Positions 992-24,740 of a stretch of 27,373 bases of DNA are shown in pieces; positions within the stretch are counted from its first letter, which is position 1; every line of letters begins with the position of its first letter. The DNA lies in the IMG/VR virus record IMGVR_UViG_3300009509_000697, positions 1-27,373 of that record, one strand, 5' to 3'. The position numbers and the translations under genes are program-made. This stretch comes from a virus. The notes under the pieces were generated by a model, which was not told the origin of the DNA, ran no database searches, and saw only the letters and a program-made list of their open reading frames with translations.

Positions 992-1410
992 ACTGTTGGC
1001 TTTATCTCCAATCTAAGTCTGACAGTCCACCATGCGTTCTGTCCTTCAATGTCACATCCCAGGAGGTCATCCTGAAAGTCACCTGTGATATAGGCATCAT
1101 GTAGAGTGCCATAGTGGTCTGTAAACTTTATGACATTAGATGGACTGCCATTTGGATTATTGAGTCTATATAGATATTCGAGTATAGCGTAGTTGCCATA
1201 ACCAGCATCAGGGTCATCATAGCCGACACGGATAATGTAGTCGTGTGTCTCGTAGACACCACCCATAGTAATATCAAGACCGCCACCTATTGTGGTGCTT
1301 TTGGTTTGAGACTTCTCAAGAGTTCTCTTACGACCAGTCTGTATTACTCTAAAGTAGCCACCAGAACCGCTTGTGCTATCCCATAACTGAATGTAAGCAT
1401 AGGAAGCCAT
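988..1410 (-). CDS. Small beta-rich tail protein downstream of tape measure
   Basis: This 140-residue protein starts MASYAYIQLWDSTSGSGG. Its ATG shares the last A of the tape-measure stop (TAATG), and its own TGA overlaps the next start (ATGA), so it sits in a coupled tail operon. The sequence is Gly/Tyr-rich with alternating polar and hydrophobic residues and no membrane segment, which predicts mostly beta structure. It is much shorter than a usual distal tail protein. Position suggests a tail-tip or baseplate component, but the family is not recognised. Its ribosome binding site must lie within the 3' end of the tape-measure gene. Confidence 0.75.
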   Translation of the reverse strand: MASYAYIQLWDSTSGSGGYFRVIQTGRKRTLEKSQTKSTTIGGGLDITMGGVYETHDYIIRVGYDDPDAGYGNYAILEYLYRLNNPNGSPSNVIKFTDHYGTLHDAYITGDFQDDLLGCDIEGQNAWWTVRLRLEIKPTV

Positions 1411-4400
1411 TAGACATCAATCTCCTTATCGACTATATCAGTTACAAGCTCTGCAAGCTGATAGCCACCGACATTTAGTATCATGTGCACGGTCTTGGAG
1501 CCACCATCACTACCAAAGAATGTTTGCTCCTTCTCCCACGGATTGAGCCTATAAGAAGGTATGACATAGCCATCAGAGCTTGGGATAATCTTCTCTGGCC
1601 CCATCTCGCCAACCCATACCTCTTGACCACCACGCACTCTTCCACCGCGCTGTGCCGTACTTGTAGCTCTATCATAACCACAGTTTTTGCAAACACGGCT
1701 TGTTATAGAGTTTACAGTAGAACATCTTGGACAACGCCAAGTTCCTTCCTCTGGACTACCCTTGTCTCCAGGAATAGTATTGGGGTCACTATAATCAGGA
1801 GCAAGACCTTCCTCTAGCTTAGTTTTTCCCTCTATAAGGTCTTCTATAATAGCCGCTAGTACAGGGTCAAGGTTCTCAAGAGCATCTATAAACTCAGCCA
1901 TTCCTAAAGTAGCTGCATCTTGTAAATCTTGATTTAGCTGAGTGGCATATTCCTGGAACTCCTGCATACGTTCTGCGACATCCTGTTGAGCTGCGGCATA
2001 GGCAGCTGAAGCTCTAGCAGCTTCTTCTGAAAGCTGCATATTCTCTTCCCAATACTTGCGTTGTAGTTGTACAGACTCTTCTTCAAGAGCTTTGCGTTGT
2101 TCGTAGAACTCTCTAGACTTAGCGAGCTGCTCTTCCTGCATCGCAACAGTCTCTTCATGTTGTTGACGCTGAATGTCGAACCGCTTGTCTTCCATCTGCC
2201 AGATTTCTTCCTGACGAGCACGTTGTCTATCAATCTGGTCTCCTTCAAGACCGTGCATGATAACATCACGCCGCATCTGGCGTTCTGCTAATCTGCGGTC
2301 ACGCCCTGTCATGAAGCGAACTTGTTCACCAAAGTCCTCTACACGCCAACCCCACTGTAGATTTCTAATCTGGTCTTGATAGCTATAATCTTCTCTAGTC
2401 CAACCACGTTGCTTCTGAGCCTGTTCCTGCTGAAGTGCAAAGTTTTGCTCCCAAAAACGGTTCTGCATTTCCATCTGCCGCTCTTGGAAACCGAATTGCC
2501 ACTCCTGTTGTGCATAACCAAGCTGTCGTTGACGGTCTTCAATAGACCAGAATTGAGGTTGGTACTCACGCTGTAGTGCTAATCTCTGAAACTGTATACC
2601 AGCCTGAGTAGCCTGATAACCAGCTTGTAGCTGTAACTGGTATCTCTGAAGACCCCACTGACCACCCTCTATCATCGCTTGAGCTGCTGGAGTTCCAGCG
2701 TTTGCACCGAATATTTGAGCACCCATCGCCGTGGATGACATCAGTCCCGTAGCCAATGATGTAGTACCCCATGGCAATCCTGTCATTTCTCCAGTTGGAG
2801 ATATATCGGTGTGGAACATGGTTGACCATGGGATATTTCGCATACCTCCCATGAGATTCATCGTTATTCCAAACCCACCAAACGCACTTGTTGTGAGAGC
2901 TTGAGCCGTTGCGGGGCGTTGTCGTGCCCATTGAACCCATCTTCTTGGGTCACCTTGTAACATTCCTTGATACATCATATACTGCTGTGGTGCATTTTCT
3001 GCAAGGTCACCAATATAGTTACCCCATGCTTCCGCTCGCAGAGGCGCGACGCCTTGACCTATCAAAGTTTGAGAAACTCCAAGACCAGCTTGCATACCAG
3101 ATGTCGCAAATAACATCTCTCCCGTAGTAGCCCCTCCTAGAGGGCCAAATCCTGCTGGCACTTGGGTCACACCTAGTTGCCCAGCTGCCTGACGGTATTG
3201 TGCCAGAGCTGCCGCCCTTATCTCCATTGGGTATACCTGTTGATACTGCTGTGCATATTGCTCTGGAGTTATTGGTTCTGTATAGTCCTCAAGTCTTGGG
3301 AACTGGTACTCAAAACCAGCAGTTGTGAACTGTTCTGCTATTCTAGCTTGTTGAGCCATAAGCTGGAACTGCAATTCTGGAATATCGCCAAGCTCTCTCA
3401 TGTATTGTTCTGCCGTAAAGAACTGTTGTCTTCCTCTTAGAGCTTGCTGTATTCCAGGCGCATACCGTAGTGCGCCAAGTCCTTCTTCTGTTGGATAAGT
3501 TGGAACAAGAGGCCCAAGCTGCTGATAGCGTGTTCCTCCACGTTGTATCCTAGTCATATCAGCCGCAGTAAGACCGCCCTGACGTAACCATTGTTCAATG
3601 GTTGACCCAGCTCTCTGTTCAATCTGTGTCGTCGTGAGACCAGGGGCATACCCTACTGTAAGAGCCATTTGCTCATAAGGAATATTCTGAGCAAGACCCA
3701 TAGATAATTGTTCGTAAGTACCTCCTGCACCCTGTGTTAGTCCTAGTCCATAATATGTCTCAAGTGCTGTTGCCTCAGCAAGACCAGCTACAGGAACGGT
3801 TGGATGTTCTTGAACCCTCCAGTTTTGATAAAGTGTAGTGTAATATCTAATTTCCTCTTCAGTTCTACCAGTAGAGCGAAGGTACTCTGATATATTTTGT
3901 CCTTGGTCTTGAGCCGCGCGTATTTCTAACATCACATCTCTAGTTTCTTGCATCAGCTCAAACTGTGGTTTATTGAAAAGACCTGCCCAAGCCTGACCGA
4001 GGCTTCCTGGACTAATCATTCCACCTATCATTTGACCAGCAAACTGTCTCACTTGACCCAGGTTTGTAGGCGGTCTACCACCCCATCTTGATTGAATATC
4101 ATAATAAGTTTGTGCAAGTTGAACGCCTGATAATTCTGGTACCTGAGCTGCGCCATAAGCTGTCATTCCTACAGTACCAAGAGCTGCAATACCACCAATA
4201 ATAGGTGCTAGAAGTGGATTGGCCAATGCGCTTCCTGCTGGAGCCATCATCCCTAACCAGCCAGCAAGTGCGGCACCACCTAGAGCTGCACCACCAGCTG
4301 CTAATGCCGTGCCATAACCGCCTCTTATCAACCCTGCCTGTGTTCGTCTAACGGCAGACCAACCAAGGCCACCATAACCAGCCTCTGCTCTAGTAACCTC

Positions 4401-7400
4401 TTCCTCTGGATTTAGTACTGGCATCATGCCACCAAAGCGAGCACCCATAGCAGTTTCTATAGCAGCTCTTTGCTGGATACCTTCGGCGTATCCCATCTGA
4501 GTGCCACCAGTGATAATTCCTGCGAGGGAACGCATATACATGAGACCAAAACCGCCGAGCATACGTCTGGTCATACGCCCAAATTGCTTGTATGCTCCCA
4601 TACCACCATCATCTTCACCAGTAGCAGCGGCTAATAGCTGTCGGTTATAGTCCTGTTCGGCTTTTGTATAATTGTCAACAATAGCAAGTTGGTCTATAGA
4701 TGCGTTGTCATAGGCTTGCTGTCGTAATTGCTTTATCTTTTCTGGAGATATTCTGCCGCCCTCAGTAGGAGCACCAAAGGCATCTGATACTGCTTTTGCA
4801 GCTGTCTCCATAGTGGCATATTTCATATTCAGTCTATCAACTGCTGATAGAATTCCTGGCTTGCCTGTTTTTCTAAATTCAGCACCAAGCTCAGACTTGA
4901 TAGACTCAGCAAATGCAGTAAGCTTCTCTTCAGAGCTTTTAGCTTCAATGCCAGCGTCTTTGATAACCTTGTGAAATGGCTTCATATTTTCAATGAAGTC
5001 ACGCATGGCTTTATTAGAAGAGTCAACGGCAGAAGCAAATGTCTTATGTATCTGAATACCTTCTGCCGTTAGTGTTTCTCCTGGAGATGGCATCCCTGCT
5101 ATACTAGACAGCACCTCAAACGTTCCAGCCATTTGTCCATACTTCTCACCGCCACCAGGAGCAAATCCCTCAATCTGTTGTTCGTATCCAGTTCTTGCAA
5201 TAGATTGTATAAGAGCGTTCTCGTGAGCACTAACACCAGGAATATAGCCCATCGCTGGCGCAAGCTCATTAGACCACTTCTGTATTCTTGCAAATCTGCC
5301 TAATAGATTCCCTAAAGGAGACTGTTTTATTGTTTTACCAACATCAACGCCTTTTTCCTGCATAGCCATAAGCACTTGAGAAAGACCACTAATAGGTGTT
5401 TTGCTTAGGACATCTGCATATTCTGGAAACAGATTAGCTAATGTTTCGGGAAGGTTCTCATAAGCCTCCATCATAGTACCACCAGCTAATTCTCCCCAAT
5501 TTCTACCCTCGCCTATTGGAGTAGCTACTTCAGCCAGAGCACCTTGAAGCTGCTTGAATATTCCTTCAAGTCTTGGTGCGTTCTTTGGAGGACGCCTATT
5601 TCTATATTGAATATTGTCGCCTCCACCGCCTCCACCACCCGAAAACTCCTCCCATGCGGCCATTATGAAGTTCATGAAATCGCCAAAATCGCCTCCACCA
5701 CCAGTAGATGCGGCTCGTCCACCACCAGTGGGAGTTTGAGCACCACCAGTAGATGGAAGAGCGTTTGCTGGAAATCGCTCTTCTCGTGATATTGGTATTG
5801 GCGGTATATTTGGCTCTTGAATTTGTATTCCTTTTGCCTGAGCAAGTGCTCTAAGAGACTCTTCCACACGACTTGGATTTGCCATAGCAGCTGGATATGT
5901 CGTAAGACCAGCTGTTGTTGCTTCCTGCCAGACACGTCCACCAAGATTGTTGAGATAGAATTGGTAACCGCTCACGCCAGTTGGTAAGGTTCCTGCTAAC
6001 TCCGATGCTCTTGCACGAAGAAGTTCTTCCTGTCTCATTCGCATGAGTGTTTCCCGTGGCACCTGACCAATACTTACAATATCCCCAATTAACGCTCGGT
6101 TGTAGGAAGCCATCTGAGGTAGGTGTACCGTGGGGTCGCCACTACTAATCTTTATGTCAAGAGGCCCGACTTTATCTCCTACTTGAAAATATGGCACGTC
6201 AACTCTACCAGTGGTCATACCAGGAAAAGCACCAATCTCCATTTCAGCCTCAATACCTTGAGATTTCAGAAATGCTTCAACCGCTCTGTGTCCTAATTTC
6301 CCTGCTCGTAGGATTTCTCTTGGCGGCAGTTCTTTACCAGGATATGCCAGCTCTGAAGGACGGACACCTCTACCCATAGCCTCTTTTAGCTGTAGTGCAA
6401 TATCGTCTACTCTAGCCCATGGTCGTAGTGCTTCCTGTTCCATAATCTCGGCACTTCTTCTCCAGCTTGTTACCTCTTCAGATGCTACTCCTGGAGGGCC
6501 AGCCCATGGTGGATTGAACGCCTGACCCCATGATGCGTGAAAGTGTCTGGCAAGATACTGGTTTTGTGAACCACTCTCCCTGAACCAATTCAACATTCTC
6601 CATGCTTGAGGAAGTGACCGTGCTAGTCCCTTAGACTTATCTCCTAGCAGGAAGTCATATAGCATAGATGCTGGCTCAAAACGCTGTACTGTCTGTTGCC
6701 AGTTTAGATTACCGTAAGCACCAAGACGTAATGGGAATTGTTGTGTGGCACCTATAAGAGCTTCGCCGTGTTCCCTTTGACCATATTCCATGGCTCTTGT
6801 GAGGAGAGCATTGATACCAAGAGAGCGTTCACTAAATCTACCAGACTCTACAAGCTCATTTATAGTTTTAGTAAGCGTGGTACCACCAGCCTTCATAGCT
6901 GGCTCAAGTATTCCAGCAATAGACTTTTGCTCTTTGTATAGCTCAAAGGCATAATCTAGGTCATTCATTCCCCCTGGTTTCCATTCTGGAATATCCATCA
7001 TCATCGCGGCAAAGCCCATAGGGGATAGACCTTCTTGGGTGCCTAGCCACTTAGCCACATTTCCAGTAAGCACACTTATGTCAGTACCAGCAGGTTCCCA
7101 AATCCTCCCTGTAGTGTAATCTCCTGGTTGATGTTCTCCTGGTGTCTTGTAAGCACCAAAGATTGGTTTGCCTTCAGACCCAACAAGGAAACCAGCACTA
7201 CCCATGATGGTATCCCAAAACTTTTGGATATAGCGCATATCGACAGCTTCTGAGTACTCACTGGTTTTTGTGACATCCAATGCCCCTGCTGTCCATATAT
7301 CGGGAGCACCAAGGTCTGCGGCAGCTACCCATCCTCTGCGCCCATAGACATTGTAGACAGTACCCATGCCCCTCTCTTTACTGAGGGTTATCTTCTCTAA

Positions 7401-10400
7401 AGCTTCAGGGAGTTTACTGGCTTGTGTTGTAGCAGTAGATGATGGGCCTAGACCCCATCTACCTTCTGCACCGAGAAAGAATCCTTGAATCTGCTCGAAT
7501 AGTGGCATCTGTTGCATGAATGTGCCACCAGCGTAGAAACCTCTCATAGCTGCTATCTGAGCCATTGGAGCATTTTGAGCAGCAACGCGCCTCATGAAAT
7601 CCTCATATTCTCCCTTTGGAGCATTATTAGGTATGAACCTGTTCCAGCGCATCTTCCCGCCCACTTGCTCTCCATACATGAGAGATAACCACATACGGGG
7701 GTCTTTGTCAGCATCTATCTGTGAGGCACCTTCAAGAGCGGAAGCTATCAGTTCTGGCATTGGTAGCCCATGCTGTCGATAAGTTTCTGCCAAGTCAGCT
7801 ACAATTCCACCACCTCTCTTTCCAAACGGTGTCAAGATTTGTTTTGCCTGAATAGCCCCAGGCACTCCCTCTGAGCCAGAGGCTGTGTATGGCGGTCTTG
7901 AGGCGGTGCCAAAAGAACCATGAAATGTTCTCACAAAGTTCCAGTAATCTTTAGAGCCTATATCGGCAGTTCCACCCATAATGCGATACATACGCTCAAC
8001 GCCTTCTTCTGACATGTACTCTTTCCCTGGCATCAGTAAATTGGAAAGAGTAGCGTGTGCAAATATACCGCCACCTCTGGATTTATATATAAGTTCACTA
8101 CCAAGGAATTGTTCTTGAAGACCAAGTACTCTCGCTCTAAGTTTTTGGTTTGGTCTTCCAGTACCTTCGGCATTAGCAAGCTCAAAGTAACTCGGCAACA
8201 TCTTGGTGCTCAAGTAAGAACCTGTGGTCATACCAAAACCAAGACTCTTCAAGAGTTCAAGTTCATCCGTTTCAAGTCTAGCAAATGACAATGGGTGTGC
8301 AATAGTAGTCCCTTGAGACAGGAAGTGAATAGGAAGGTTGGGTTGTCCTTCCTTTCTACCAGCTAGCTTATTTATAGTTTCCCCAAGAGAGCGCAACCTT
8401 TGCCAATCGTTCATATCCTTGAACCCTTGTTGGGCATTGATAATATCTTGGGGGTCAATACCACCTTCTCCTACAAGGATTGTTTCACTCAAGTCTGGCA
8501 TCTTTCCAGCTTGTGTATATTGCCAAGACCTCTGTATTTGGCGTATTGCATCGGCAGATGGAGTCTGTCTAAATATTCTTTCCTTATTACGTGTCAGGTA
8601 ATCAGCTGCATCAAAGAAGCCTTGACTACGTAGTGACATAGCCTCTAAACCCTGAGTAGAACCAACACCTACCATCTCTGGCACAAATTGAGCATGGACA
8701 GGAGCATAAATAGCCTCTGGAACATTTACAGATAGTCTATAAATACCCTTGCCCTCATGTCTCCATTGATATTGCTGTTTTACAAGAGCTTCAGCCTCCT
8801 TTCTTGATATTCCAGGTTGACCTTCTACGGTCTCACTCATAAGAGCTTGAATACTGGTCTCTATAAACTCTTGCTTTGCCTCTTTAGTATATTGCTCTAC
8901 TGGTACTACTCCACCTACACGACCAATACTAAATCTATTCAATAATTCAACGTTTCTCTGTATATCAATATCTGCCATTGGAGAAGTATATTGGAATGTT
9001 CTCAAGGCAGCTTCCTTGAGCATCCCTGCTGGAGTGCCAGACTTATCAGCACCTACAGCACCAGCAAGACCAGTAGCTGTTGGTCTTTCGCCAGCCAGCC
9101 CCTGTTCATAAGCTGATATTCCCTTAGCAGACTCTGGAAAGATATAGCGCAGATAATCATATAGATTATTCTCGCCAGCAGTTGGCATGGACTTCATTGA
9201 AGACCACAATAGAGACTCATAACTCTTAGACTCCGCTAGAATATTGTATGGAAGATAACCACCTGATGTCTTCATTCTGTAGTATTCTTCGGGGTCAGCA
9301 TAAAGAGCTGGAGCATTGATTTGTACCTTGAATGGGTCAACCTTCAATGCTGGCTCTGATAAGAGTTGAGTCTCGGCGGCAATATATGGCTTTTCTGTAG
9401 CTTCAAGACTTGGGCTTATCCTTATTCCAAGCTTTTCAGCGTATTGCTCTATCGCAGCTTGTCTTCCCTCATCTAGCATCTCTTCTGGATTTATGTGGAG
9501 TGTATAACCAGTGATAATCGACCGTTGCTGACTGGCAGTAAAACCAAGCTCCATTGGCTCCATGCCAGCACCAGTACCAATACTTCCAAAAGCAATCCTT
9601 TTTCCTGGCTCTAAAGGTTTTCCAATAAGACTCTTATCAACGGTCAAACCCGACTCAAGTATGGTTTTGATGTCTCCCCCACCAAGCATAACTGTCTCAC
9701 GACCAGTAGAGGCTACTCGTAATGTTTGTCCCTGCGAAGAGAGCTGTTCTTTTAGCTGTTTACCAAGCCAAAATTGTCCCATACCAGACTGTGCTGGCAT
9801 CATGGTCATAGGTACTATTGCTTGCATCCTAAGACCGCGTACGGATGGCTCAGTGGTTACCTCATTAGTGATGGACGGAAGCTCATATATACCAGGAGCT
9901 TCTAATGGTGCCGCTCCTTCTTTGCCGTAAGCATATAGTTGATGAGAAGGACGAAGACCGCCAATATGTTTGTGTTTTAGCCATGTCTCTGTCATGGCAC
10001 TACCAGCTAATTCTCCGCTAGGAGTTACCCAAGTCGGGCCACCAGCACCAACGCCAACCATATACATGGTTCCTGCTTCACCAAGTGTGCCACCACCAGC
10101 CCACTTCCACCAACCTTCAGCGTCAGCTCCTACTGGCACTTGTCTTGGTAGATAAGGCAATCTTAGCTGCTCACGAATACCAGCAGCTATTTCTTCTGGT
10201 CTTCCAGCTTTCTGAGCAACTACATACCTCCACGCCATATTGGTGAGCCTCTGTTCCGTAAGCTCTTCTGGAGCAAGCCATACTGGTTGCCCTGGCATAA
10301 TATCCAGGTTCTGACCACCAAGTCCCGTACGCTCAACTAATGCCTTGCCTGGACGTGGTTGGTTTAGCCCTGTTAGAATTTGATTGACTGTACGATTGCT

Positions 10401-10823
10401 CAAATCCCCCTCAGGTTGTTGCTGGTATCTATAAAAAGCAGCTGAAAGTCTTCTAGAAAAACTCTCTATACCGCTATAATATGGTACAACGTCTTCTATC
10501 TTTTGCCCTTGTAATTGTATCCCCTTTGGGCCTGCTGGTTTCGTCTCACCAATATAATGACGATAACCAATTCCTTCTTGAACAAGCATTGTGCGGTTAG
10601 GCGCAGCTGTCATTATGCCACGCCAATAGCCACCCTCAACATCAGGGTGCCTAATCGTGGTCATCCAGCGTCCTGGAACATCCCTCCAGCCCTCTCCAGG
10701 AACATACTCTCTAAGTGGTACTGTCTTTACATCGTAATCGCCACCAAACTGTCTTAAGCTAGCTTTTAGAGTACTTGCAAAAGTAGGCTCATCACGATAA
10801 GGATTCAAGTAGCCATTAGCCAT
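1410..10823 (-). CDS. Giant tape measure protein with embedded RecB-like nuclease motifs and zinc finger
   Basis: I start this at the ATG at 10823 (MANGYLNPYRDE), giving 3137 residues, because AGGAG lies about ten bases upstream; an ATG 12 codons earlier lacks such a site. The start overlaps the preceding stop by 8 bases. Layout: residues 1 to about 1500 are unrecognised. Residues 1510-1575 hold PD-(D/E)XK motifs (H1512, D1542, D1556-I-K1558, Q1570-xxx-Y1574). About 1685-1740 is a Gly-rich linker. About 2168-2225 is an Ala/Gly hydrophobic pair of segments. About 2740-2975 is a Trp/Phe/Gln-rich coiled coil. Residues 3029-3048 form a CxxC/CxxC zinc finger. About 3070-3090 reads GEMGPEKIIPS, a sequence common near tape-measure C termini. 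The C-terminal half sets tail length and is ejected on infection. Position after tail tube and G/G-T chaperones supports the call. The N-terminal half may be a virion-delivered module (inference). Confidence 0.9.
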   Translation of the reverse strand: MANGYLNPYRDEPTFASTLKASLRQFGGDYDVKTVPLREYVPGEGWRDVPGRWMTTIRHPDVEGGYWRGIMTAAPNRTMLVQEGIGYRHYIGETKPAGPKGIQLQGQKIEDVVPYYSGIESFSRRLSAAFYRYQQQPEGDLSNRTVNQILTGLNQPRPGKALVERTGLGGQNLDIMPGQPVWLAPEELTEQRLTNMAWRYVVAQKAGRPEEIAAGIREQLRLPYLPRQVPVGADAEGWWKWAGGGTLGEAGTMYMVGVGAGGPTWVTPSGELAGSAMTETWLKHKHIGGLRPSHQLYAYGKEGAAPLEAPGIYELPSITNEVTTEPSVRGLRMQAIVPMTMMPAQSGMGQFWLGKQLKEQLSSQGQTLRVASTGRETVMLGGGDIKTILESGLTVDKSLIGKPLEPGKRIAFGSIGTGAGMEPMELGFTASQQRSIITGYTLHINPEEMLDEGRQAAIEQYAEKLGIRISPSLEATEKPYIAAETQLLSEPALKVDPFKVQINAPALYADPEEYYRMKTSGGYLPYNILAESKSYESLLWSSMKSMPTAGENNLYDYLRYIFPESAKGISAYEQGLAGERPTATGLAGAVGADKSGTPAGMLKEAALRTFQYTSPMADIDIQRNVELLNRFSIGRVGGVVPVEQYTKEAKQEFIETSIQALMSETVEGQPGISRKEAEALVKQQYQWRHEGKGIYRLSVNVPEAIYAPVHAQFVPEMVGVGSTQGLEAMSLRSQGFFDAADYLTRNKERIFRQTPSADAIRQIQRSWQYTQAGKMPDLSETILVGEGGIDPQDIINAQQGFKDMNDWQRLRSLGETINKLAGRKEGQPNLPIHFLSQGTTIAHPLSFARLETDELELLKSLGFGMTTGSYLSTKMLPSYFELANAEGTGRPNQKLRARVLGLQEQFLGSELIYKSRGGGIFAHATLSNLLMPGKEYMSEEGVERMYRIMGGTADIGSKDYWNFVRTFHGSFGTASRPPYTASGSEGVPGAIQAKQILTPFGKRGGGIVADLAETYRQHGLPMPELIASALEGASQIDADKDPRMWLSLMYGEQVGGKMRWNRFIPNNAPKGEYEDFMRRVAAQNAPMAQIAAMRGFYAGGTFMQQMPLFEQIQGFFLGAEGRWGLGPSSTATTQASKLPEALEKITLSKERGMGTVYNVYGRRGWVAAADLGAPDIWTAGALDVTKTSEYSEAVDMRYIQKFWDTIMGSAGFLVGSEGKPIFGAYKTPGEHQPGDYTTGRIWEPAGTDISVLTGNVAKWLGTQEGLSPMGFAAMMMDIPEWKPGGMNDLDYAFELYKEQKSIAGILEPAMKAGGTTLTKTINELVESGRFSERSLGINALLTRAMEYGQREHGEALIGATQQFPLRLGAYGNLNWQQTVQRFEPASMLYDFLLGDKSKGLARSLPQAWRMLNWFRESGSQNQYLARHFHASWGQAFNPPWAGPPGVASEEVTSWRRSAEIMEQEALRPWARVDDIALQLKEAMGRGVRPSELAYPGKELPPREILRAGKLGHRAVEAFLKSQGIEAEMEIGAFPGMTTGRVDVPYFQVGDKVGPLDIKISSGDPTVHLPQMASYNRALIGDIVSIGQVPRETLMRMRQEELLRARASELAGTLPTGVSGYQFYLNNLGGRVWQEATTAGLTTYPAAMANPSRVEESLRALAQAKGIQIQEPNIPPIPISREERFPANALPSTGGAQTPTGGGRAASTGGGGDFGDFMNFIMAAWEEFSGGGGGGGDNIQYRNRRPPKNAPRLEGIFKQLQGALAEVATPIGEGRNWGELAGGTMMEAYENLPETLANLFPEYADVLSKTPISGLSQVLMAMQEKGVDVGKTIKQSPLGNLLGRFARIQKWSNELAPAMGYIPGVSAHENALIQSIARTGYEQQIEGFAPGGGEKYGQMAGTFEVLSSIAGMPSPGETLTAEGIQIHKTFASAVDSSNKAMRDFIENMKPFHKVIKDAGIEAKSSEEKLTAFAESIKSELGAEFRKTGKPGILSAVDRLNMKYATMETAAKAVSDAFGAPTEGGRISPEKIKQLRQQAYDNASIDQLAIVDNYTKAEQDYNRQLLAAATGEDDGGMGAYKQFGRMTRRMLGGFGLMYMRSLAGIITGGTQMGYAEGIQQRAAIETAMGARFGGMMPVLNPEEEVTRAEAGYGGLGWSAVRRTQAGLIRGGYGTALAAGGAALGGAALAGWLGMMAPAGSALANPLLAPIIGGIAALGTVGMTAYGAAQVPELSGVQLAQTYYDIQSRWGGRPPTNLGQVRQFAGQMIGGMISPGSLGQAWAGLFNKPQFELMQETRDVMLEIRAAQDQGQNISEYLRSTGRTEEEIRYYTTLYQNWRVQEHPTVPVAGLAEATALETYYGLGLTQGAGGTYEQLSMGLAQNIPYEQMALTVGYAPGLTTTQIEQRAGSTIEQWLRQGGLTAADMTRIQRGGTRYQQLGPLVPTYPTEEGLGALRYAPGIQQALRGRQQFFTAEQYMRELGDIPELQFQLMAQQARIAEQFTTAGFEYQFPRLEDYTEPITPEQYAQQYQQVYPMEIRAAALAQYRQAAGQLGVTQVPAGFGPLGGATTGEMLFATSGMQAGLGVSQTLIGQGVAPLRAEAWGNYIGDLAENAPQQYMMYQGMLQGDPRRWVQWARQRPATAQALTTSAFGGFGITMNLMGGMRNIPWSTMFHTDISPTGEMTGLPWGTTSLATGLMSSTAMGAQIFGANAGTPAAQAMIEGGQWGLQRYQLQLQAGYQATQAGIQFQRLALQREYQPQFWSIEDRQRQLGYAQQEWQFGFQERQMEMQNRFWEQNFALQQEQAQKQRGWTREDYSYQDQIRNLQWGWRVEDFGEQVRFMTGRDRRLAERQMRRDVIMHGLEGDQIDRQRARQEEIWQMEDKRFDIQRQQHEETVAMQEEQLAKSREFYEQRKALEEESVQLQRKYWEENMQLSEEAARASAAYAAAQQDVAERMQEFQEYATQLNQDLQDAATLGMAEFIDALENLDPVLAAIIEDLIEGKTKLEEGLAPDYSDPNTIPGDKGSPEEGTWRCPRCSTVNSITSRVCKNCGYDRATSTAQRGGRVRGGQEVWVGEMGPEKIIPSSDGYVIPSYRLNPWEKEQTFFGSDGGSKTVHMILNVGGYQLAELVTDIVDKEIDV

Positions 10824-11112
10824 CTTTGTTTTTCTCCTGCGCTTTGTTGATGGCTTCAAAGAGAGCCTTGGTCTGAACGCAAATAGCGTACTCTTTCATC
10901 CAAATATAAGGCTGGTCTTCTATACCGCCCTGCACCAAAGGCAGTCCCAAATCCTTACACTGTTCCGTGAGAATAAGGGCTTCTGGCTTGTCAGGTATTA
11001 TTGTCCTAAGTCCTAAGCGCACCTCCGCAATAGAACCAAAATAATTCTGTAATGCCTCATCTAGTTCGCTCAGCTTCTCAGCAAGGGCTAAGTCGCCAAA
11101 GGGCCACCCCAA
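10816..11112 (-). CDS. Tail assembly chaperone T domain, expressed by -1 frameshift from G
   Basis: This frame has no convincing start of its own: its 5' boundary is a TTG inside the end of the upstream gene, with no ribosome binding site. It lies in the -1 frame relative to that gene, and a CCCTTTG heptamer sits in the overlap. Slippage there would join 147 residues of G to 93 residues of this frame, giving a G-T protein of about 240 residues. The T part (GDLALAEKLSELDEAL onward) ends in a Lys-rich tail. Its TAA falls 8 bases inside the tape-measure start. In lambda and relatives, G and G-T chaperone the tape measure while the tail tube polymerises, and the gene order here fits exactly. The sequence family itself was not recognised; the call rests on architecture. 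Confidence 0.8.
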   Translation of the reverse strand: MGWPFGDLALAEKLSELDEALQNYFGSIAEVRLGLRTIIPDKPEALILTEQCKDLGLPLVQGGIEDQPYIWMKEYAICVQTKALFEAINKAQEKNKDG

Positions 11113-11537
11113 GTGAGGTTCACCTCCACAACTTTCTCGTGAATCTCATTTGCGATAACTGGTGGCAATTTACCCCATGCTTCTGCAAACTCATAATTGC
11201 TCATATCGAGGTATTGCTTGCCCGATTTATCTTTCTTGAATTTGAACAACGATTTGTCGTTCTCGTCCAGAAGATTGCAATCAACAAGAGTAAGAAATGC
11301 CTCGGTTCTCTTTAGCTCCTCATTAGACCAGTTCGATTGTAGCGTGAAAGAGTCGTCTTCAGTTCTAGCCTTCATAACTCTTTGCACTTCAGAGAATACT
11401 CTTGAGCGTTTCTCGTTTTGCGCCTGAGTAGCTTGCCTAACTGTGATGCGAGTAGGCTCACCATCAGTACCATAAAGCTCGTCTGACCTATCAAGGGTAA
11501 ACTCTTGCTCAATAGGAGCGGCTAATTTCAGTGGCAT
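11088..11537 (-). CDS. Tail assembly chaperone G
   Basis: A 149-residue soluble protein (MPLKLAAPIEQEFTLDRSDE), charged and mostly helical in appearance. The ATG at 11537 is preceded by AAGGAG at about 8 bases. It lies between the decoration-like/tail-tube genes and the tape measure, the fixed position of G-type chaperones in siphophages. Its last codons contain the slippery heptamer used to make the longer G-T form (see 11097-11103); normal termination at 11088 gives G. The 77-base gap upstream carries a GC-rich hairpin and a perfect palindrome, so its expression may be set separately from the capsid and tube genes. Confidence 0.8.
   Translation of the reverse strand: MPLKLAAPIEQEFTLDRSDELYGTDGEPTRITVRQATQAQNEKRSRVFSEVQRVMKARTEDDSFTLQSNWSNEELKRTEAFLTLVDCNLLDENDKSLFKFKKDKSGKQYLDMSNYEFAEAWGKLPPVIANEIHEKVVEVNLTWGGPLAT
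11097..11103 (-). other. Programmed -1 ribosomal frameshift site (CCCTTTG)
   Basis: In the zero frame the codons are GGC CCT TTG, a canonical X_XXY_YYZ heptamer (C CCT TTG). Slippage of both tRNAs by one base gives CCC TTT and continues into the open T frame. The zero frame stops six bases later (GCG ACT TAG), so the overlap is only 25 bases. This is the expected layout for tail chaperone genes. Confidence 0.8.
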
Positions 11538-12084: not shown

Positions 12085-13179
12085 TTATGAGGGCCAAGCG
12101 TAGCTTGCAAACTGGTTGGTCAGCTCGAAGGTAACGTAGTCTGAGCCTGGAACATCAAGAGCCGTTCCAGTAAAGCGCATCATAACTGCATTGTTACCAG
12201 CTAACTGAATACCACCAGCAAGAGCCAGCATAGCCTTAGTAACGCTAACTTTTAGACTGTATGGGTTCAGCTCTCCAGGCATCACATCAGGAGACAGAGT
12301 ATAGAAGTCAATAGCCGAAGTAAACGGCACTGAACTCCAAGTCGTCCCACTTACTGAGCCTGTGAGAATCTGACGGTACAGGTCTGGATTAGTCCACTTG
12401 ACGGTCAGGTCAAGTGTTATTGCTCTACTTACGATGGTGACATCCTGTAAGTATGGGGAGCCGTACACCTTTTCCATTCTGACATCGAGAGGCATGTTTT
12501 GCATACCAACGGTGCAGAGCACAACAGGCAGATTACCAAACGTTGGAGTATTGATATATCCACCAGGGGTTGTACCGATAGGAATTGAGTCGTACTCTTC
12601 AAACTCACCATAGGGGTCATTCCATCCACCAGTTGAGCCAGCAGTGATACCCCATGAAGGGTCTTCCTCAAGCGAGAAGGTGCGCCCTACGGCGTCCACT
12701 CTTGCGCTGACTAGACCATCATTAGGCAGTGTCAGCAAGAAGTTAGTGACCTTACAGTCTACAAAGGTCTCACCGAGACCATAATCTCCTGCGTCACCGC
12801 CAGAGGGGATGAACTTCCTGAATCCCATCCATGGAATCACGGATGGTGCATTGTCATCCAGTCTAAACGTGTGGTTATAAATTGAACCACTACCTGAAGT
12901 GCTGGTCGAGTCACCGAGCGCAGCACCTAACAGCCAGCCTACGCTAGCTTCCAGGCGTGGATTGATAGTAGCACCACCGCCAGCCATAACCCCTGCTTTA
13001 TAGGGGATGGTTGGGAGTGGACGGCCACCGACTTCGGGAGGCCCAAGTCTCTGGTCATCAAGCACAGCCAAGTCTATGAGAGTAGCCTTGTGTCTATACC
13101 AATTACCAGCTGCGACACCCTGGCCTTTCCCTGCCGATGGCCCAAAACCTAGAATACCGCCTTGTGCAACAGTAGTCAT
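12085..13179 (-). CDS. Major tail tube protein
   Basis: This 364-residue protein starts MTTVAQGGILGFGPSAGKG at an ATG with AGGAG six bases upstream. It is Gly/Thr/Val-rich and beta-dominated with repeated short strands, as expected of a tail tube subunit that stacks in rings around the tape measure. It is longer than the minimal tube protein (about 150-250 residues in many siphophages), which suggests an extra surface domain. It lies between the putative tail terminator and the chaperones, the usual place for the tube gene. Assignment is from order, length and composition. Confidence 0.75.
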   Translation of the reverse strand: MTTVAQGGILGFGPSAGKGQGVAAGNWYRHKATLIDLAVLDDQRLGPPEVGGRPLPTIPYKAGVMAGGGATINPRLEASVGWLLGAALGDSTSTSGSGSIYNHTFRLDDNAPSVIPWMGFRKFIPSGGDAGDYGLGETFVDCKVTNFLLTLPNDGLVSARVDAVGRTFSLEEDPSWGITAGSTGGWNDPYGEFEEYDSIPIGTTPGGYINTPTFGNLPVVLCTVGMQNMPLDVRMEKVYGSPYLQDVTIVSRAITLDLTVKWTNPDLYRQILTGSVSGTTWSSVPFTSAIDFYTLSPDVMPGELNPYSLKVSVTKAMLALAGGIQLAGNNAVMMRFTGTALDVPGSDYVTFELTNQFASYAWPS

Positions 13180-14384: not shown

Positions 14385-15755
14385 TTATTGCACCGTGCGT
14401 GTGCCTTTGATTCTGGTAGAGCCAGCAGAGAATAGAACCTCGAAGACTTCTGGCTGATAAGGCTGATAGCCCATATACTGGTCAAAGCTAAAGCGATAAA
14501 TCGCCTTGAAGTCATCAATCGGGTCTAACTCATAAAACAGTGGTTGCTGAGAGACACCAGCCACAATAGCTTGTGGGCCTCCAACAAAGATACTGGCGTG
14601 AACATGACGCCCTAAAGTTACGTAACCATAGAAGCCGCCCAGGTCAGTGTTGAAGTCAACCAATACTGGTTTGTCAAGCACCAGCCTGTTATTAACGGAG
14701 TCAATAGCTACGACACGGCGATTGGTCAGTTTGCCTTCCTGGAAGTCAACGCCATCGGTAACACCATAAGTACTTGTGACAGTCTGGTGGATTGAGATAA
14801 CGTCATTGACCTCAATCTGTGCAAGACTGCCTGAAGTGAAGGTGCCGAGTTGGATATAGTTGACAATGCCAGATGAAGATTGACCAACCTTATAAGTGCC
14901 ATCTACCTTGGTGACGCCAGGAACAGGCGCGCCATCGCCAGCATTGATAGCGGCAGTGATGGGCGCACGGGCAATTACGGCACCGCAGTTCCATAGAGTG
15001 CACTTGGGGGTCTGGACGTAACGAACATTCTTGTGAGCACCGACTTCGTAGTTCAACAGCATCCTATCTTGTAGGTATTCACGAGTTGAAGTCCAATCGT
15101 CATCTTGCTGAATGTCGTATATTACGCCAGGGCTTGTGAAGCACACGATAGAGCCTTCTGCACCAGTTGGCCCCTGTGCGCCAGGAACATCACGGTAGGT
15201 CATTCCCAACCAGATGTCTGCGCCAATAGCGGGGTCATACAGGTCGTCAGTGGCAATATCGCCAAAATTAGTAGCACCACCAGCCCACAGGGTATAGCCT
15301 GTGGTCAGTGCACCACCAATCAGGGCGTTGCGAGCGAGAATATCATTCATATCGACTTCAGCAACACCTAGCGCACCACGAGCGATTCTACGAAGACCAG
15401 CCTGGGAGTTTTGCTTCCAGTAGGTAATCATGTCATCATATTTGTGGTATGCAATTTTGTTGCCGTTGTGCTGGAATGTAATCTCAACTTCACGACTATC
15501 AATGTGCATAGATGGCATCCAGATTTGTCGCATCGCCAAAGGCGTTGTGTCTGGATGTGGGTCTAGTAACTGTGTAACGGACATTGAGGTTGCCCTAACA
15601 TCAAGTAAACTTTTAGTGAACGTGATGAGAGGACGAAAAACTGAGCGTTGTCGCCAAATATCAATCAAATCAGGGTCTAACCAAGTCCTCTGATTCTTAT
15701 CCATGATACTAAATGGCTCATCGCTATAATACAGGTCGAAATCTCCTGCGGCCAT
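14385..15755 (-). CDS. Major capsid protein
   Basis: A 456-residue protein (MAAGDFDLYYSDEPFSIMDK) with GAGGTG just upstream of its ATG. It follows the scaffold gene directly, as major capsid genes usually do. The N-terminal 140 residues contain a stretch typical of capsid N-arm and E-loop regions (ITFQHNGNKIAYHKYDDM). Residues about 265-350 are a Gly/Ser/Val-rich, beta-type insertion (GTYKVGQSSSG through VLDKPVLVDF), probably an extra surface domain, before the fold resumes with GRHVHASIFVGGPQAI. The overall pattern recalls the N4 gp56-like branch of HK97-fold capsids; this is recognition by eye. No N-terminal protease-cleaved delta domain is obvious. Confidence 0.85.
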   Translation of the reverse strand: MAAGDFDLYYSDEPFSIMDKNQRTWLDPDLIDIWRQRSVFRPLITFTKSLLDVRATSMSVTQLLDPHPDTTPLAMRQIWMPSMHIDSREVEITFQHNGNKIAYHKYDDMITYWKQNSQAGLRRIARGALGVAEVDMNDILARNALIGGALTTGYTLWAGGATNFGDIATDDLYDPAIGADIWLGMTYRDVPGAQGPTGAEGSIVCFTSPGVIYDIQQDDDWTSTREYLQDRMLLNYEVGAHKNVRYVQTPKCTLWNCGAVIARAPITAAINAGDGAPVPGVTKVDGTYKVGQSSSGIVNYIQLGTFTSGSLAQIEVNDVISIHQTVTSTYGVTDGVDFQEGKLTNRRVVAIDSVNNRLVLDKPVLVDFNTDLGGFYGYVTLGRHVHASIFVGGPQAIVAGVSQQPLFYELDPIDDFKAIYRFSFDQYMGYQPYQPEVFEVLFSAGSTRIKGTRTVQ

Positions 15756-20155: not shown

Positions 20156-20402
20156 GTATCACCGAATTGAAGGTAATCTCTGCTTGCATAACAGCTCTGA
20201 AATCTACTGGCAGGGGTTCTCCTGATTGCCACATCTTCAAATAAGGCTTTATCTCTTCCTTATTGAAATAAAATATGGTCTTCCCAACAGACCTCTTCGT
20301 CCTTACATGCTTCTCAACCTTCACACCATTTACCATAAACCATAGCACCAGAGGTCTATCTTGCGTATCCCACAACTCAACCTCAGAAGCTTGTTGACTC
20401 AT
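20142..20402 (-). CDS. Small protein in packaging operon, function unknown
   Basis: An 86-residue protein (MSQQASEVELWDTQDRPLVL). GAGG lies 7 bases upstream of the ATG and the start overlaps the end of the upstream gene by 20 bases. The N-terminal half looks beta-rich (WFMVNGVKVEKHVRTKRS), the C-terminal half mixed. No family was recognised. Overlaps on both sides place it in one transcript with terL. Confidence 0.65.
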   Translation of the reverse strand: MSQQASEVELWDTQDRPLVLWFMVNGVKVEKHVRTKRSVGKTIFYFNKEEIKPYLKMWQSGEPLPVDFRAVMQAEITFNSVIHDEI

Positions 20403-20571
20403 AGAGTTCCCTCATCGTTGTCTCCTCGAAAACTAACACATCACCAGGGAGCTTCAACACCTGATACGTCTTCTTGGAGTCCACCACCCATCCAGGTTGC
20501 TTCTCTTGCAACCAAATGCGCCTCAGTGCTTCCCATCGTCCTGGGTCACTCTCTTGCGTTATCCTCGCCAT
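20383..20571 (-). CDS. First small gene of the leftward operon, function unknown
   Basis: A 62-residue protein (MARITQESDPGRWEALRRIW) with AAGGAG 8 bases before its ATG. It is the first gene after the divergent region and probably the first read from the promoter at 20639-20668. It is rich in Trp and charged residues with a predicted N-terminal helix. A small terminase subunit would be expected near here, but this protein is shorter than usual and has no clear DNA-binding motif. Confidence 0.65.
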   Translation of the reverse strand: MARITQESDPGRWEALRRIWLQEKQPGWVVDSKKTYQVLKLPGDVLVFEETTMRELYESTSF

Positions 20572-20638
20572 CTTCTTTGCTCCTTATTTCTAGTACTGAA
20601 AATACTTTTAGTATATAGAGAACCCTCTAACACATGAA

Positions 20639-20668
20639 ATATTAGCACATCATACCCCCTAACGTCAA
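20639..20668 (-). promoter_or_regulatory. Probable promoter for the leftward packaging operon
   Basis: The minus strand reads TTGACG, 18 bases, TAATAT. The -35 box is five of six to consensus and the -10 box four of six. It lies about 68 bases upstream of the first leftward gene. An inverted pair of TACTGAAAA motifs (about 20594 and 20732) flanks it and could bind a regulator. Confidence 0.45.
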
Positions 20669-20789
20669 TATTACCCATATCCTATCATATACCATTAACG
20701 TATTCCCCCTATTATTAGCATCGAAACTGTTTTCAGTATGCCCAATACCCCTCGGATGTGTAGCGTGGTAATAGTAATGGTGGTGACAC

Positions 20790-21157
20790 CGATAAAGTGA
20801 ACACGGGGGTGTTCATCTTTATTCTGGTGGGGTACCACATCTTCCCCTCCCTCCCCCGAGGGGGGTAGGAGGATGCCCTCCAGACCTAGTGGGACAGGCT
20901 AGGCGGTAAGTCCACCTTGGTTTCCTGTCCGATATTCACCACTCACGCACGGCCATAAGGTGCAAATCCGAGCGTGAGAGCGTACAGCGGCAAGTCCGTT
21001 TGCGCTTCAGGTTGCTCCTGAAGTGGGACTTGTGTCCAAGCACGTAACAGAACCCGTAGGTACAGATAGGGACAACCCTAAAAGGTATCAGAGACCTATG
21101 GCCCTATCCCTAAGCCCATAGCAGATACTGACTGTACCGAAAGGTCACATCGACGCT
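20790..21157 (+). ncRNA. Candidate large structured RNA in the divergent region
   Basis: No coding frame with a ribosome binding site is visible in 20572-21241, yet perfect stems are dense: TGAACAC-gggg-GTGTTCA (about 20809-20826), GGACAGG with CCTGTCC, CTCACGC with GCGTGAG, CAAGTCC with GGACTTG enclosing CTTCAGG-ttgct-CCTGAAG (20991-21032), AGGG-acaa-CCCT, GGTACAG with CTGTACC, and GGCCATAAGG (20951) with CCTATGGCC (21095). A GAAA tetraloop (ACC-GAAA-GGT, about 21135-21144) is read on the plus strand and favours that orientation. Such size, density and phage context recall large ornate phage RNAs (ROOL and GOLLD), but I cannot assign a family. Ends are approximate and no clear promoter was found for it. 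Confidence 0.5.
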
Positions 21158-21197
21158 AAGAGACACAACACTCCTACATGGGAGGTTGGTGGCTCTT
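21158..21197 (+). repeat. Hairpin repeat A before first rightward gene
   Basis: AAGAG-CAC-AAC-CTCC pairs with GGAG-GTT-GTG-CTCTT (15 pairs with small bulges) around a TACATG loop, followed by CTCTCCTAGG. The right arm (GGTTGGTGGCTCTT) recurs at 21622-21635 and its complement at 21982-22001. It lies 44 bases before the start codon at 21242 and could be a processing site, attenuator or regulator target. Confidence 0.55.
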
Positions 21198-21241
21198 CTC
21201 TCCTAGGCATATACACATATACACAAAAAGGAGAGTATACA

Positions 21242-21571
21242 ATGAAAAACAAAATCTGGCGATATGGTGTACATCTTGGAAGATTGTGGATTAGTTGGTA
21301 TGTCCACTTCCAAGTATGCTTCTATAGTACAAAGCATGATGCTTATGTAATGTATTGTAGAGTGCGTATTCCATCATTACCACGTGTGCGTCCAGGCATG
21401 ACATTGGGTCGCTATCACTGGGCCTTTTGGATTTGGATAAATGCGTGGCAGATTCAAGTAACTAATTGGGATAAGCATCCCTGTTGGGGCATAGAGCATA
21501 GAAGACTCTATGCCTATAACAGGCGACATTTGTTTCTAAAGAAAGCTGTAATTTCTTGGGGAAACGTTTAG
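21242..21571 (+). CDS. Tryptophan-rich small protein, function unknown
   Basis: A 109-residue basic protein (MKNKIWRYGVHLGRLWISWY) with AAAAGGAGAG upstream of the ATG. It has many Trp, Tyr, His and Arg residues, including a segment FWIWINAWQIQVTNW, and no standard transmembrane helix. It is the first gene of the rightward cluster and may be an early-expressed host-interaction protein. That is inference; the family is unknown. Confidence 0.65.
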   Translation: MKNKIWRYGVHLGRLWISWYVHFQVCFYSTKHDAYVMYCRVRIPSLPRVRPGMTLGRYHWAFWIWINAWQIQVTNWDKHPCWGIEHRRLYAYNRRHLFLKKAVISWGNV

Positions 21572-21583
21572 ATATATTCAATG

Positions 21584-21644
21584 CCTAGGAGAAAAGAGCT
21601 ACTGACCTTTCCTATAGGATGGGTTGGTAGCTCTTGTCTCCTGG
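21584..21644 (+). repeat. Hairpin repeat B between early genes
   Basis: AAGAGCTAC (21594-21602) pairs perfectly with GTAGCTCTT (21627-21635), and flanking CCTAGGAGA and TCTCCTGG extend the stem. Sequence on both arms matches hairpin A, so this is a repeated element. It sits between the genes ending at 21571 and starting at 21685. Confidence 0.6.
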
Positions 21645-21684
21645 ATACTAAATATATTTCTATATTTATAAACAGGAGGCTGAC

Positions 21685-21963
21685 ATGATTGGAGAAGCAA
21701 GGTATAACAAGATAACAACTCTAATTACCTTTCTGCGTCTTTTGAAAGGTGTAGATTGGGGAAGGTCACGATATAGTGGTGCTTTCAAGACCGACCTATA
21801 CTTTCTTGATATATTCATCTCTCATTATGGCGTATTCAAGGCACTCATAGATTTGCTAGTCAATAGTGCCGCTTTCAATTACGTCACGACACACAATGAG
21901 AATGAGTGTTATGTAATCCACATCCAAATCACAGAACAAGACTATAACAAGTTCTTTGGATAA
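21685..21963 (+). CDS. Small protein, function unknown
   Basis: A 92-residue protein (MIGEARYNKITTLITFLRLL) with CAGGAGG just upstream. It has a helical N terminus, a hydrophobic middle (YFLDIFISHYGVFKALIDLL) that is amphipathic rather than clearly membrane-spanning, and a C terminus reading YVIHIQITEQDYNKFFG. Hairpin repeats flank the gene on both sides. The gene at 22529 also combines a hydrophobic start with an NNxx-type polar middle, but relatedness is unproven. Confidence 0.65.
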   Translation: MIGEARYNKITTLITFLRLLKGVDWGRSRYSGAFKTDLYFLDIFISHYGVFKALIDLLVNSAAFNYVTTHNENECYVIHIQITEQDYNKFFG

Positions 21964-21975
21964 GATTGACAGTAT

Positions 21976-22020
21976 CCAGGAGATGAGAGTTACCAACCTC
22001 CCACGCAGACGTTCACTGCG
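21976..22020 (+). repeat. Repeat C: inverted copy of the hairpin arm
   Basis: CCAGGAGATGAGAGTTACC followed by AACCTCCC is close to the reverse complement of the right arm of hairpin A. It is followed by its own stem ACGCAG-acgttca-CTGCGT (22002-22020). The region precedes a very short frame with a strong ribosome binding site. Confidence 0.5.
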
Positions 22021-22057
22021 TTAACAAAGGGTTACTTGCCTAATAAGGAGGATAATT

Positions 22058-22093
22058 GTGTCTTGTGCAAAACAACATGTGTATCATATATGA
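22058..22093 (+). CDS. Possible 11-residue leader peptide
   Basis: A GTG preceded by AAGGAGG at good spacing opens a frame of 11 codons (MSCAKQHVYHI) ending in TGA. One base later begins the stem TGAGGT-cttt-ACCTCA. A short peptide with a strong site directly before a hairpin suggests a leader or attenuation arrangement. Equally it could be a chance or decayed start. Confidence 0.3.
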   Translation: MSCAKQHVYHI

Positions 22094-22528
22094 CTGAGGT
22101 CTTTACCTCATATAGCATGTATTATCCAATGCTATTAGTCATTGATTATATACACTAACAGTATTGCACTATCATCGCTGTCTGTATGCCTATACTGTAA
22201 AGGGGATAGTCTCCCCTAGACCCAAAAATTTTTCCCGCTCCTGTTACTTAGGTCATAGTATATACCTACTATAAAAGGGAAGAACATATAGTAAGGCGAT
22301 GTGCTGTGCTGTCATAAGACACAATGTCCGTCTCGTGCAGCCGTAAAACCTTCCAACAAACCAGCCTAGGGCGAAGGAAACTGGTTGGCTGAACACGTAT
22401 AGATTGTCGCCCACTAAACCTAGTACTGGAAGGAGGAGACTCATACTCTCCTCCTTCTGCTAGTAGATTTTAGCCGAGGCTCGTTAGAAGCCAGTCAACT
22501 ATGGAATCTTATAAACAGGAGGAATAAA
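22094..22528 (+). other. Non-coding stretch with strong hairpins (second candidate structured RNA)
   Basis: No plausible gene is seen here. It holds TGAGGT/ACCTCA (22095-22110), GGGGA/TCCCC followed by an AAAAATTTTT run (about 22202-22233), AACCAG with CTGGTT and GGGCGA with TCGCCC (about 22345-22412), and a perfect 10-bp stem GAAGGAGGAG / CTCCTCCTTC (22429-22457). A minus-strand frame of 63 codons overlaps these stems, and its apparent ribosome binding site is part of the last stem, so I do not call it. The 22250-22470 part may be a separate structured RNA or a leader of the gene at 22529. Confidence 0.45.
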
Positions 22529-22723
22529 ATGCCTAAGAAATTACTTGGGTATCTTGGGCTGTTATCAGCCATTGTCAGTATTGAATATTATTACAATGCT
22601 GACAATGATTTGGTTGTCCACTGCGACAACCAAACAGATTGCGATGAGTTGTACTCGTTGCTGGTAGAGAACGAATACAACGTTGTTGATAGGGAAGACC
22701 TGAGACTCTGTATTCGTTTTTAG
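22529..22723 (+). CDS. Small protein, function unknown
   Basis: A 64-residue protein (MPKKLLGYLGLLSAIVSIEY) with CAGGAGG about 8 bases upstream. The first 20 residues are hydrophobic, but the rest is acidic with NNxx, CDNQTDCDELYSLLVENEY and a final LRLCIRF. It could be a small alpha/beta domain. No family was recognised. Confidence 0.65.
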   Translation: MPKKLLGYLGLLSAIVSIEYYYNADNDLVVHCDNQTDCDELYSLLVENEYNVVDREDLRLCIRF

Positions 22724-22733
22724 TAACGCCCTT

Positions 22734-22764
22734 CAGCCTAGCATGAGGGAGGGAGGCTAGGCTG
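22734..22764 (+). terminator. Perfect 9-bp hairpin after 64-residue gene
   Basis: CAGCCTAGC and GCTAGGCTG form a perfect stem around a 13-base purine-rich loop, 10 bases after the stop. There is no T run, so it may be a processing or stabilising hairpin rather than a terminator. A second stem, CCTGTGC/GCACAGG (22811-22837), precedes the next ribosome binding site. Confidence 0.4.
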
Positions 22765-22850
22765 TGTGGCTCTTACTAATAAACTCCTTTCAATACCCGT
22801 TAGGGCATTACCTGTGCCAACCTATATTATGCACAGGGAAGGAGAACAAA

Positions 22851-23057
22851 ATGATTAGTATGAAGAGTGTAAGTGCCAGTTGTGGCGTATCCCTGCCTCC
22901 AGATAGGCAGGGGTGTTATCTATACCGTGTCGAAATACATGGCGCGGTGAAATATATCCACCACGATACAGAGGGTGCAGTTCCCCTCCAATTAGGTGGT
23001 GATGGTCGGGTATTGGCATGTGGCCAATGCCCTATTCATAATAGTAAGGAGGTGTAA
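22851..23057 (+). CDS. Small Cys/His-containing protein, function unknown
   Basis: I start at the ATG at 22851 (MISMKSVSASCGVSLPPDRQ, 68 residues), which has AAGGAG six bases upstream; the longer open frame has no such site. The C-terminal CGQC and scattered Cys/His residues could bind a metal, but spacing does not match a known finger that I recognise. The stop is 2 bases before the next start, so the two genes are probably cotranslated. Confidence 0.65.
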   Translation: MISMKSVSASCGVSLPPDRQGCYLYRVEIHGAVKYIHHDTEGAVPLQLGGDGRVLACGQCPIHNSKEV

Positions 23058-23059
23058 AA

Positions 23060-23242: not shown

Positions 23243-23251
23243 GGAGAAAAC

Positions 23252-24735: not shown

Positions 24736-24740
24736 GGAGA

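Follow-up and report, generated by a model that had tools for sequence, protein, structure and literature searches.

A viral tape measure protein with a predicted two-barrel RNA polymerase and a predicted RecB-type nuclease domain

Protein gp96 of Thermus phage P23-45 is a tape-measure-fused virion RNA polymerase for which activity and crystal structures are available, and its authors proposed that transcription takes place while the DNA passes through the tape measure pore (Chaban et al., 2024; PMC10770324). RNA polymerase families share little sequence similarity outside the DxDxD motif, and the text of the P23-45 paper never uses the word nuclease (PMC10770324). A second described system is Tme, the tape-measure-related effector of the contractile injection system of Streptomyces davawensis, in which a nuclease domain with demonstrated activity is carried on a tape-measure-related protein of a tail-like particle (Nagakubo et al., 2024; PMC11126660). 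In addition, the nuclease SNIPE of the host membrane binds to tape measures and cuts incoming DNA, which locates the tape measure where DNA enters (PMC13190303).

The window (the whole stretch of viral DNA that was analysed, a record of 27,373 bases) has as its largest open reading frame (ORF) a tape measure gene encoding 3149 amino acids. This is the longest ORF of the tail operon and is located after the tail tube and chaperones, the size and position by which a tape measure is recognized: ahead of it are a gene that resembles those of tail tubes and a pair of overlapping ORFs of chaperone type, a 140-aa tail gene follows, and giant homologous ORFs occupy the equivalent position in relatives. 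Residue numbers given here count from the TTG start of the 3149-aa ORF; those of the preliminary description of this DNA were based on the ATG and are 12 lower. The features of the locus outside the two enzymatic regions are as follows.

1410-10859, minus strand: tape measure protein, ORF of 3149 aa from TTG at 10859 (the alternative ATG at 10823 is residue 13)
10816-11112, minus strand: candidate frameshift-type tail chaperone, a 98-aa ORF overlapping the neighbouring ORF (from position and overlap)
11088-11537, minus strand: candidate tail assembly chaperone, 149 aa (from position)
12085-13179, minus strand: tail tube-like protein, used as a query for relatives (PHROG 290, minor tail protein)
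14385-15755, minus strand: major capsid protein, used as a query for relatives (PHROG 1357; 19 relatives)
5613-5768, minus strand: linker rich in Gly, Thr, and Pro that connects the enzymatic part with the ruler part, aa 1698-1749 (from sequence)
4158-4214, minus strand: the sole strongly hydrophobic segment, aa 2216-2234, a possible membrane helix (hydropathy scan)
1947-2618, minus strand: Gln/Glu/Arg-rich rod, apparently a coiled coil, aa 2748-2971 (from sequence alone)

The order of domains along the protein is RNA polymerase, nuclease, glycine-rich linker, hydrophobic segment, and Gln/Glu-rich rod. The presence of a linker points to an enzymatic half that the ruler carries as cargo. The tape measure very probably carries N-terminal enzymatic cargo, namely a two-barrel RNA polymerase (aa ~381-1289) and a RecB-type nuclease (aa ~1495-1620), which the glycine-rich linker connects to the ruler half. 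Close to the C-terminus of the tape measure are two CxxC pairs (WRCPRCSTVN...CKNCGYD; window 1671-1739, minus strand), which are likely to form a zinc ribbon, with Pfam scores below the cut-off. Elsewhere in the window, positions 20400-25000, beyond the switch in GC skew, contain only small ORFs on both strands, and long genes are still absent from this region when TAG is read as Gln.

The closest counterpart of the enzymatic half is P23-45 gp96, which likewise has an N-terminal two-barrel RNA polymerase with RxP and DxDxD motifs (RNP at 741, DFDGD at 779-783) and a tape-measure gene position. In the window the polymerase region and the tape measure share a single ORF, with the polymerase region in its N-terminal half, as they do in the homologous giant ORFs. 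The two proteins differ in that gp96 has 5002 amino acids and a metallopeptidase, whereas the window tape measure is without one by Pfam. Comparison by hhalign of the window polymerase region with gp96 gave no sequence similarity (probability 0.05%), and the nuclease motif series was not found in the gp96 sequence. The crAss-like phage gp66 and N4 virion RNA polymerases are not tape measures and belong to podoviruses, and we know of no such nuclease with either of them. The likeness in those cases is that an RNA polymerase fused to a giant protein is carried in the virion (PMC10770324). Tme shares with the window protein a nuclease on a tape-measure-related protein; its domain, however, is a C-terminal, EndA-type DNA/RNA non-specific nuclease that belongs to a cellular injection system and not to a phage, and the available part of that report mentions no RNA polymerase (PMC11126660).

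The region upstream of the nuclease was overlooked in the preliminary description, and the polymerase changes what the whole protein is. The lysine pair, RxP and GDhDxD were first seen by aligning the N-terminal halves of tape measures, and the features of this region in the window are listed below.

6993-9719, minus strand: two-barrel RNA-polymerase-like region, aa ~381-1289 (alignments A6 and A8 of 17 tape measures; AlphaFold2 model of the homologue L030)
9327-9344, minus strand: K506...K511, candidate lysines of the beta-type double-psi beta-barrel (DPBB; K511 invariant in A6)
7890-7898, minus strand: R988-P-P990, corresponding to RxP in the beta'-type DPBB (no variation among the 17 tape measures)
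7701-7715, minus strand: D1049-A-D-K-D1053, the DxDxD motif with which RNA polymerases bind metal (likewise constant in all 17)

The 17 aligned tape measures share 12-34% identity, and the only invariant positions in the alignment of their segments are K511, P788, R988, P990, D1049, D1051, D1053, and G1340; G1048 (Ile in the window), Y1169, Y1202, and D1207 are near-invariant. In the trimmed alignment A8, the invariant residues are exactly R, P, D, D, and D, and the lysine is near-invariant. When 50 further loci were fetched by means of the tail-tube alignment, GDhDxD was present in the tape measures of nearly all the further contigs, and RxP was located upstream of it in most. The lysine, RxP and DxDxD motifs conserved across the 17 tape measures are, as predicted from their sequences, the catalytic set of two-barrel RNA polymerases. 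The DxDxD context in the window, QIDADKDP (7701-7718, minus strand), has Ile where other tape measures have Gly, which possibly represents drift or reduced activity. A canonical DVDGD polymerase motif (within GDVDGD) occurs at residue 1135 of the distant tape measure of L065.

The polymerase regions gave no family match in Pfam or PHROG in the members scanned. An AlphaFold2 model of the region from L030 (917 aa, 17 sequences) was of moderate quality, with a pLDDT of 61 and a pTM of 0.37. When the PDB was searched with this model by Foldseek, almost every one of the first 45 matches was an RNA polymerase large subunit, the P23-45-group phage polymerases 8f72 and 8f5m among them (best E-value, 4e-3). 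In a VIA comparison with 350,542 PDB chains, all 50 listed rows were RNA polymerase large subunits, almost exclusively beta' (best match, Z 9.1, rmsd 3.4 over 132 residues), and in several rows residues 556-728 of the model aligned on E. coli beta' from 340 to ~498. In BFVD, viral RNA polymerases took ranks 2, 5, and 7; further down the list came a P23-45 protein as large as gp64. The match in the L030 model is between a double-psi beta-barrel and RNA polymerase beta', and the beta-type barrel is a candidate taken from sequence. A calcium-binding loop was considered as an explanation of DxDxD and rejected because RxP and the lysine are invariant as well and RNA polymerases are what the fold search retrieves. 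A weak Pfam Ntox27 match at aa 995-1033 was disregarded, being below the cut-off and inside the polymerase region.

Directly behind the polymerase and ahead of the linker, in all seven homologous tape measures of the near clade (the window and six relatives), is the domain in which the preliminary description had read four RecB-type nuclease motifs. All four are present in the tape measure at the positions it gave, each exactly once in the ORF (GKLGHRAVEAF, GRVD, LDIK, and QMASY), and a further element upstream, which had been overlooked, belongs to the domain as well.

6000-6377, minus strand: PD-(D/E)XK nuclease domain core, aa ~1495-1620 (motifs, conservation, Pfam, hhalign, model)
6339-6362, minus strand: RPSELAYP, the N-terminal 'ASEL' element of the nuclease domain (kept in 7/7 homologues)
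6270-6302, minus strand: GKLGHRAVEAF (single occurrence)
6288-6290, minus strand: H1524, the RecB-type motif His (kept in 4/7 homologues)
6198-6200, minus strand: D1554, first catalytic Asp, in GRVD at 6198-6209 (invariant column D77 of alignment A2)
6150-6158, minus strand: D1568-I-K1570, catalytic [D/E]xK, in LDIK at 6150-6161 ([DE]xK in 7/7 homologues)
6102-6116, minus strand: Q1582-M-A-S-Y1586, QxxxY motif (QxxxY in 7/7 homologues)

The D, [DE]xK, and QxxxY elements are co-located in the six distant homologues, which have ~20-33% whole-protein identity to the window protein and carry the series GHTDF..VDLKT..QMAAY, GQTDF..MDLKT..QMGIY, GTPDF..EDTKS..QQLSY, GTPDF..TDTKS..QQLSY, ANPDF..TEAKS..QAEVY, and GNPDF..TEVKS..QTQGY. 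These three elements are retained in all seven divergent tape measures although most other residues vary, so that the residues do not vary freely, the behaviour by which the RecB-type reading was to be judged. The set of RecB signatures as originally described holds for these elements but only in part for the His, which is present in the window, L030, L031, and L032 and absent in L029, L033, and L034. The 'ASEL' element ([PA]-S-[ES]-[LIV]) lies ~50-110 residues ahead of the first Asp in all seven, and it resembles the 'SaSrL/SDL' start of RecB/Cas4 nucleases. Shuffling the window protein 2000 times reproduced the strict motif pattern of the preliminary description twice; two homologues contain this pattern as well (0 of 2000 shuffles of those proteins). 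The loose pattern GxxD / [DE]xK / QxxxY occurred in 2-10% of the shuffles of one protein, and is found at the same aligned site in 7/7 close homologues. In the L029 and L032 tape measures, a VGE(A/G)GPEE motif directly follows the nuclease domain; its usual place is near the tape-measure C-terminus (window 1593-1613), and its place here points to an ancient duplication or to a joint left by a fusion.

At the nuclease site, Pfam PF12705 (PDDEXK_1; curated cut-off, 22) was matched by L030 (22.3 bits, E 1.4e-4), L031 (24.0 bits, E 4.3e-5), and L032 (25.9 bits, E 1.2e-5), and the same three homologues matched PHROG exonucleases. The window domain alone gave no Pfam or PHROG family match, and nothing useful came from searching the window sequence by itself with Pfam, PHROGs, phmmer on the PDB, and tblastn on phages; the membership of its domain in the PDDEXK group rests on alignment to L030 and L031 (A1; 32% and 25% identity, respectively). 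By hhalign, the A1 profile of window, L030, and L031 aligned with two phage Cas4-family exonucleases (E 6.8e-5, probability 63.5%) with the catalytic residues in register (GRVD/GSVD, LDIK/ADLK, QMASY/QLAAY). Among the 20 records listed by tblastn with the L031 domain, the named phage records were nearly all annotated as exonucleases, none of them significant singly. The hhalign comparisons between the three nuclease subfamilies were weak, and their short alignments nonetheless land on the motifs. Profile searches of alignments A1 and A6 against PDB sequences gave no match. The seven-homologue conservation, the Pfam matches in three members, the PHROG exonucleases, and the profile comparison support the RecB-type reading.

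An AlphaFold model of the window nuclease domain (three sequences) was poor, with a pLDDT of 54. It has the element order alpha-beta-beta-beta-alpha-beta, so that the model, weak as it is, shows the order of the nuclease core whose absence from a confident structure would have spoken against the reading. With this model, Foldseek gave no significant match (first match, a SPARDA nuclease, E 0.03), whereas the VIA rows were mostly of the restriction-endonuclease-like fold, with Z at most 4.3; the top rows were Hjc resolvase, a restriction-endonuclease-domain protein, a tRNA splicing endonuclease, SPARDA nuclease chains, and XisH-type proteins. The structural evidence from model and VIA is supporting, short of decisive. 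It is supported that a RecB-type PD-(D/E)XK domain, presumably active, sits inside the tape measure.

The domain shares with RecB/Cas4-type nucleases (PF12705, PHROG exonucleases) the catalytic D, [DE]xK, QxxxY, 'ASEL', and G..H elements, but is embedded in a tape measure, with no helicase or CRISPR context. Cas4 and AddB have an iron-sulphur cluster, whereas the window-type domains have no cysteines in any of the seven homologues and have lost the His in 3/7; the absence of cysteines indicates that the Cas4 iron-sulphur cluster is absent, and the domain is not a Cas4 in the strict sense. The preliminary description knew of no standard RecB-type nuclease in tape measures, and a search of open-access journal papers for RecB, Cas4, PDDEXK, or a nuclease domain in a phage tape measure likewise found no case.

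Scanning of viral contigs with the major capsid protein yielded 19 relatives, six of which are records with full or nearly full tape measures. The nuclease is present in 7/7 near-clade tape measures, and no PD-(D/E)XK domain was detected in 14 distant or partial ones, where a very divergent copy is possible. Because distant tape measures have the polymerase motif and lack the nuclease, the polymerase can work without it, and the nuclease is an accessory to the polymerase, not a requirement. Scans for close relatives with the nuclease domains of the window, L031, and L032 returned, at most, the query contigs themselves. The search of cellular genomes yielded no relative, and for neither the tape measure nor the terminase did an isolate relative turn up, the related contigs being metagenomic; the capsid protein had one weak match, an unannotated faecal phage record. 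Several relatives have features of their own. The L063 tape measure has an extra N-terminal segment (L063:6565-7500, plus strand) with DEDDh/DnaQ-like motifs that were spotted by eye (VDFET at residue 87, GHKAGTFD, and a later H...D) and no Pfam match, and a nuclease of a different type may therein be fused to a related tape measure. In L066, a HINT sequence (intein or pretoxin-HINT-like) was located by pattern near the tape-measure C-terminus, at residue ~2775, and Pfam PT-HINT was matched with E 1e-12 in 1 of 13 members. L036 (250-8683, plus strand) encodes, just upstream of the capsid genes, several proteins of many short PAYLxG-type repeats, which were not seen in the window.

That the motifs are a chance resemblance with no nuclease fold is very improbable: the window domain alone has no database match and the loose motif turns up in ~5% of shuffles, but in this stretch three independent homologues score above the Pfam cut-off, and the co-located conservation in seven homologues and the fold search point the same way. 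Many PD-(D/E)XK proteins have lost activity, and the present domain is highly divergent, as would suit a fold kept as a catalytically silent structural or DNA-binding piece; with D, [DE]xK, and QxxxY kept in 7/7 while most other residues change, such a piece is nevertheless improbable.

For an active nuclease, the favoured order of targets is host DNA, then the end of the entering genome itself, then competing DNA. The tail tube would hold the whole tape measure, which would be ejected along with the DNA in the manner of other tape measures and P23-45 gp96; the polymerase would then transcribe the first genes during DNA entry, and the nuclease, tethered beside it, would cut nucleic acid inside the cell. 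Host DNA is tentatively taken as the likeliest target, its cleavage shutting down host transcription and freeing nucleotides, although a nuclease tethered where DNA enters would need to spare the DNA of the virus. It is possible, if doubtful, that polymerase and nuclease form one tail-delivered machine, in which the nuclease makes ends, nicks, or primers for the polymerase or clears host DNA. RecB/Cas4-type enzymes act at DNA ends, which, like the place of the nuclease right after the polymerase and ahead of the linker in 7/7 homologues, agrees with processing of the virus's own entering DNA, by trimming or nicking at the pore for polymerase start or by removal of blocked ends; the nuclease would then be part of an entry and early-transcription machine and not a weapon. 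A domain like a DNA-entry endonuclease is also known on a tape-measure-related effector (PMC11126660), but distant tape measures keep the polymerase motif without the nuclease, and processing of the virus's own DNA is rather unlikely. Slightly less likely still is early cargo that attacks competing mobile DNA, whether of plasmids, prophages, or superinfecting phages, or that works as a counter-defence enzyme: a patchy, clade-limited distribution suits an accessory arms-race module, and the L063 tape measure bears a different nuclease-like N-terminus instead, but the domain has no recognizable specificity determinant. The rest of the functional probability falls to RNA or primer processing for the polymerase, or to a structural role.

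Tape measures are usually viewed mainly as rulers, pore formers, and wall hydrolases. The present family, from an uncultivated lineage, points to a tail tube loaded with a transcription enzyme and a nuclease as well, and it widens the range of the tape-measure-fused RNA polymerase beyond the P23-45 group to a broad set of viruses from metagenomes. The fusion of polymerase and tape measure was itself already known (PMC10770324); the architecture of polymerase, nuclease, glycine-rich linker, and tape-measure rod appears to be new. Enzymes can be concealed in a tape measure that is annotated as featureless, and only motif conservation across divergent relatives brings them to light. The family is a possible source of new single-chain RNA polymerases and offers testable predictions on siphovirus injection. 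If polymerase and nuclease do act as one machine, viral transcription would start as the genome arrives, and the tail ruler would hold a polymerase-nuclease ejection complex.
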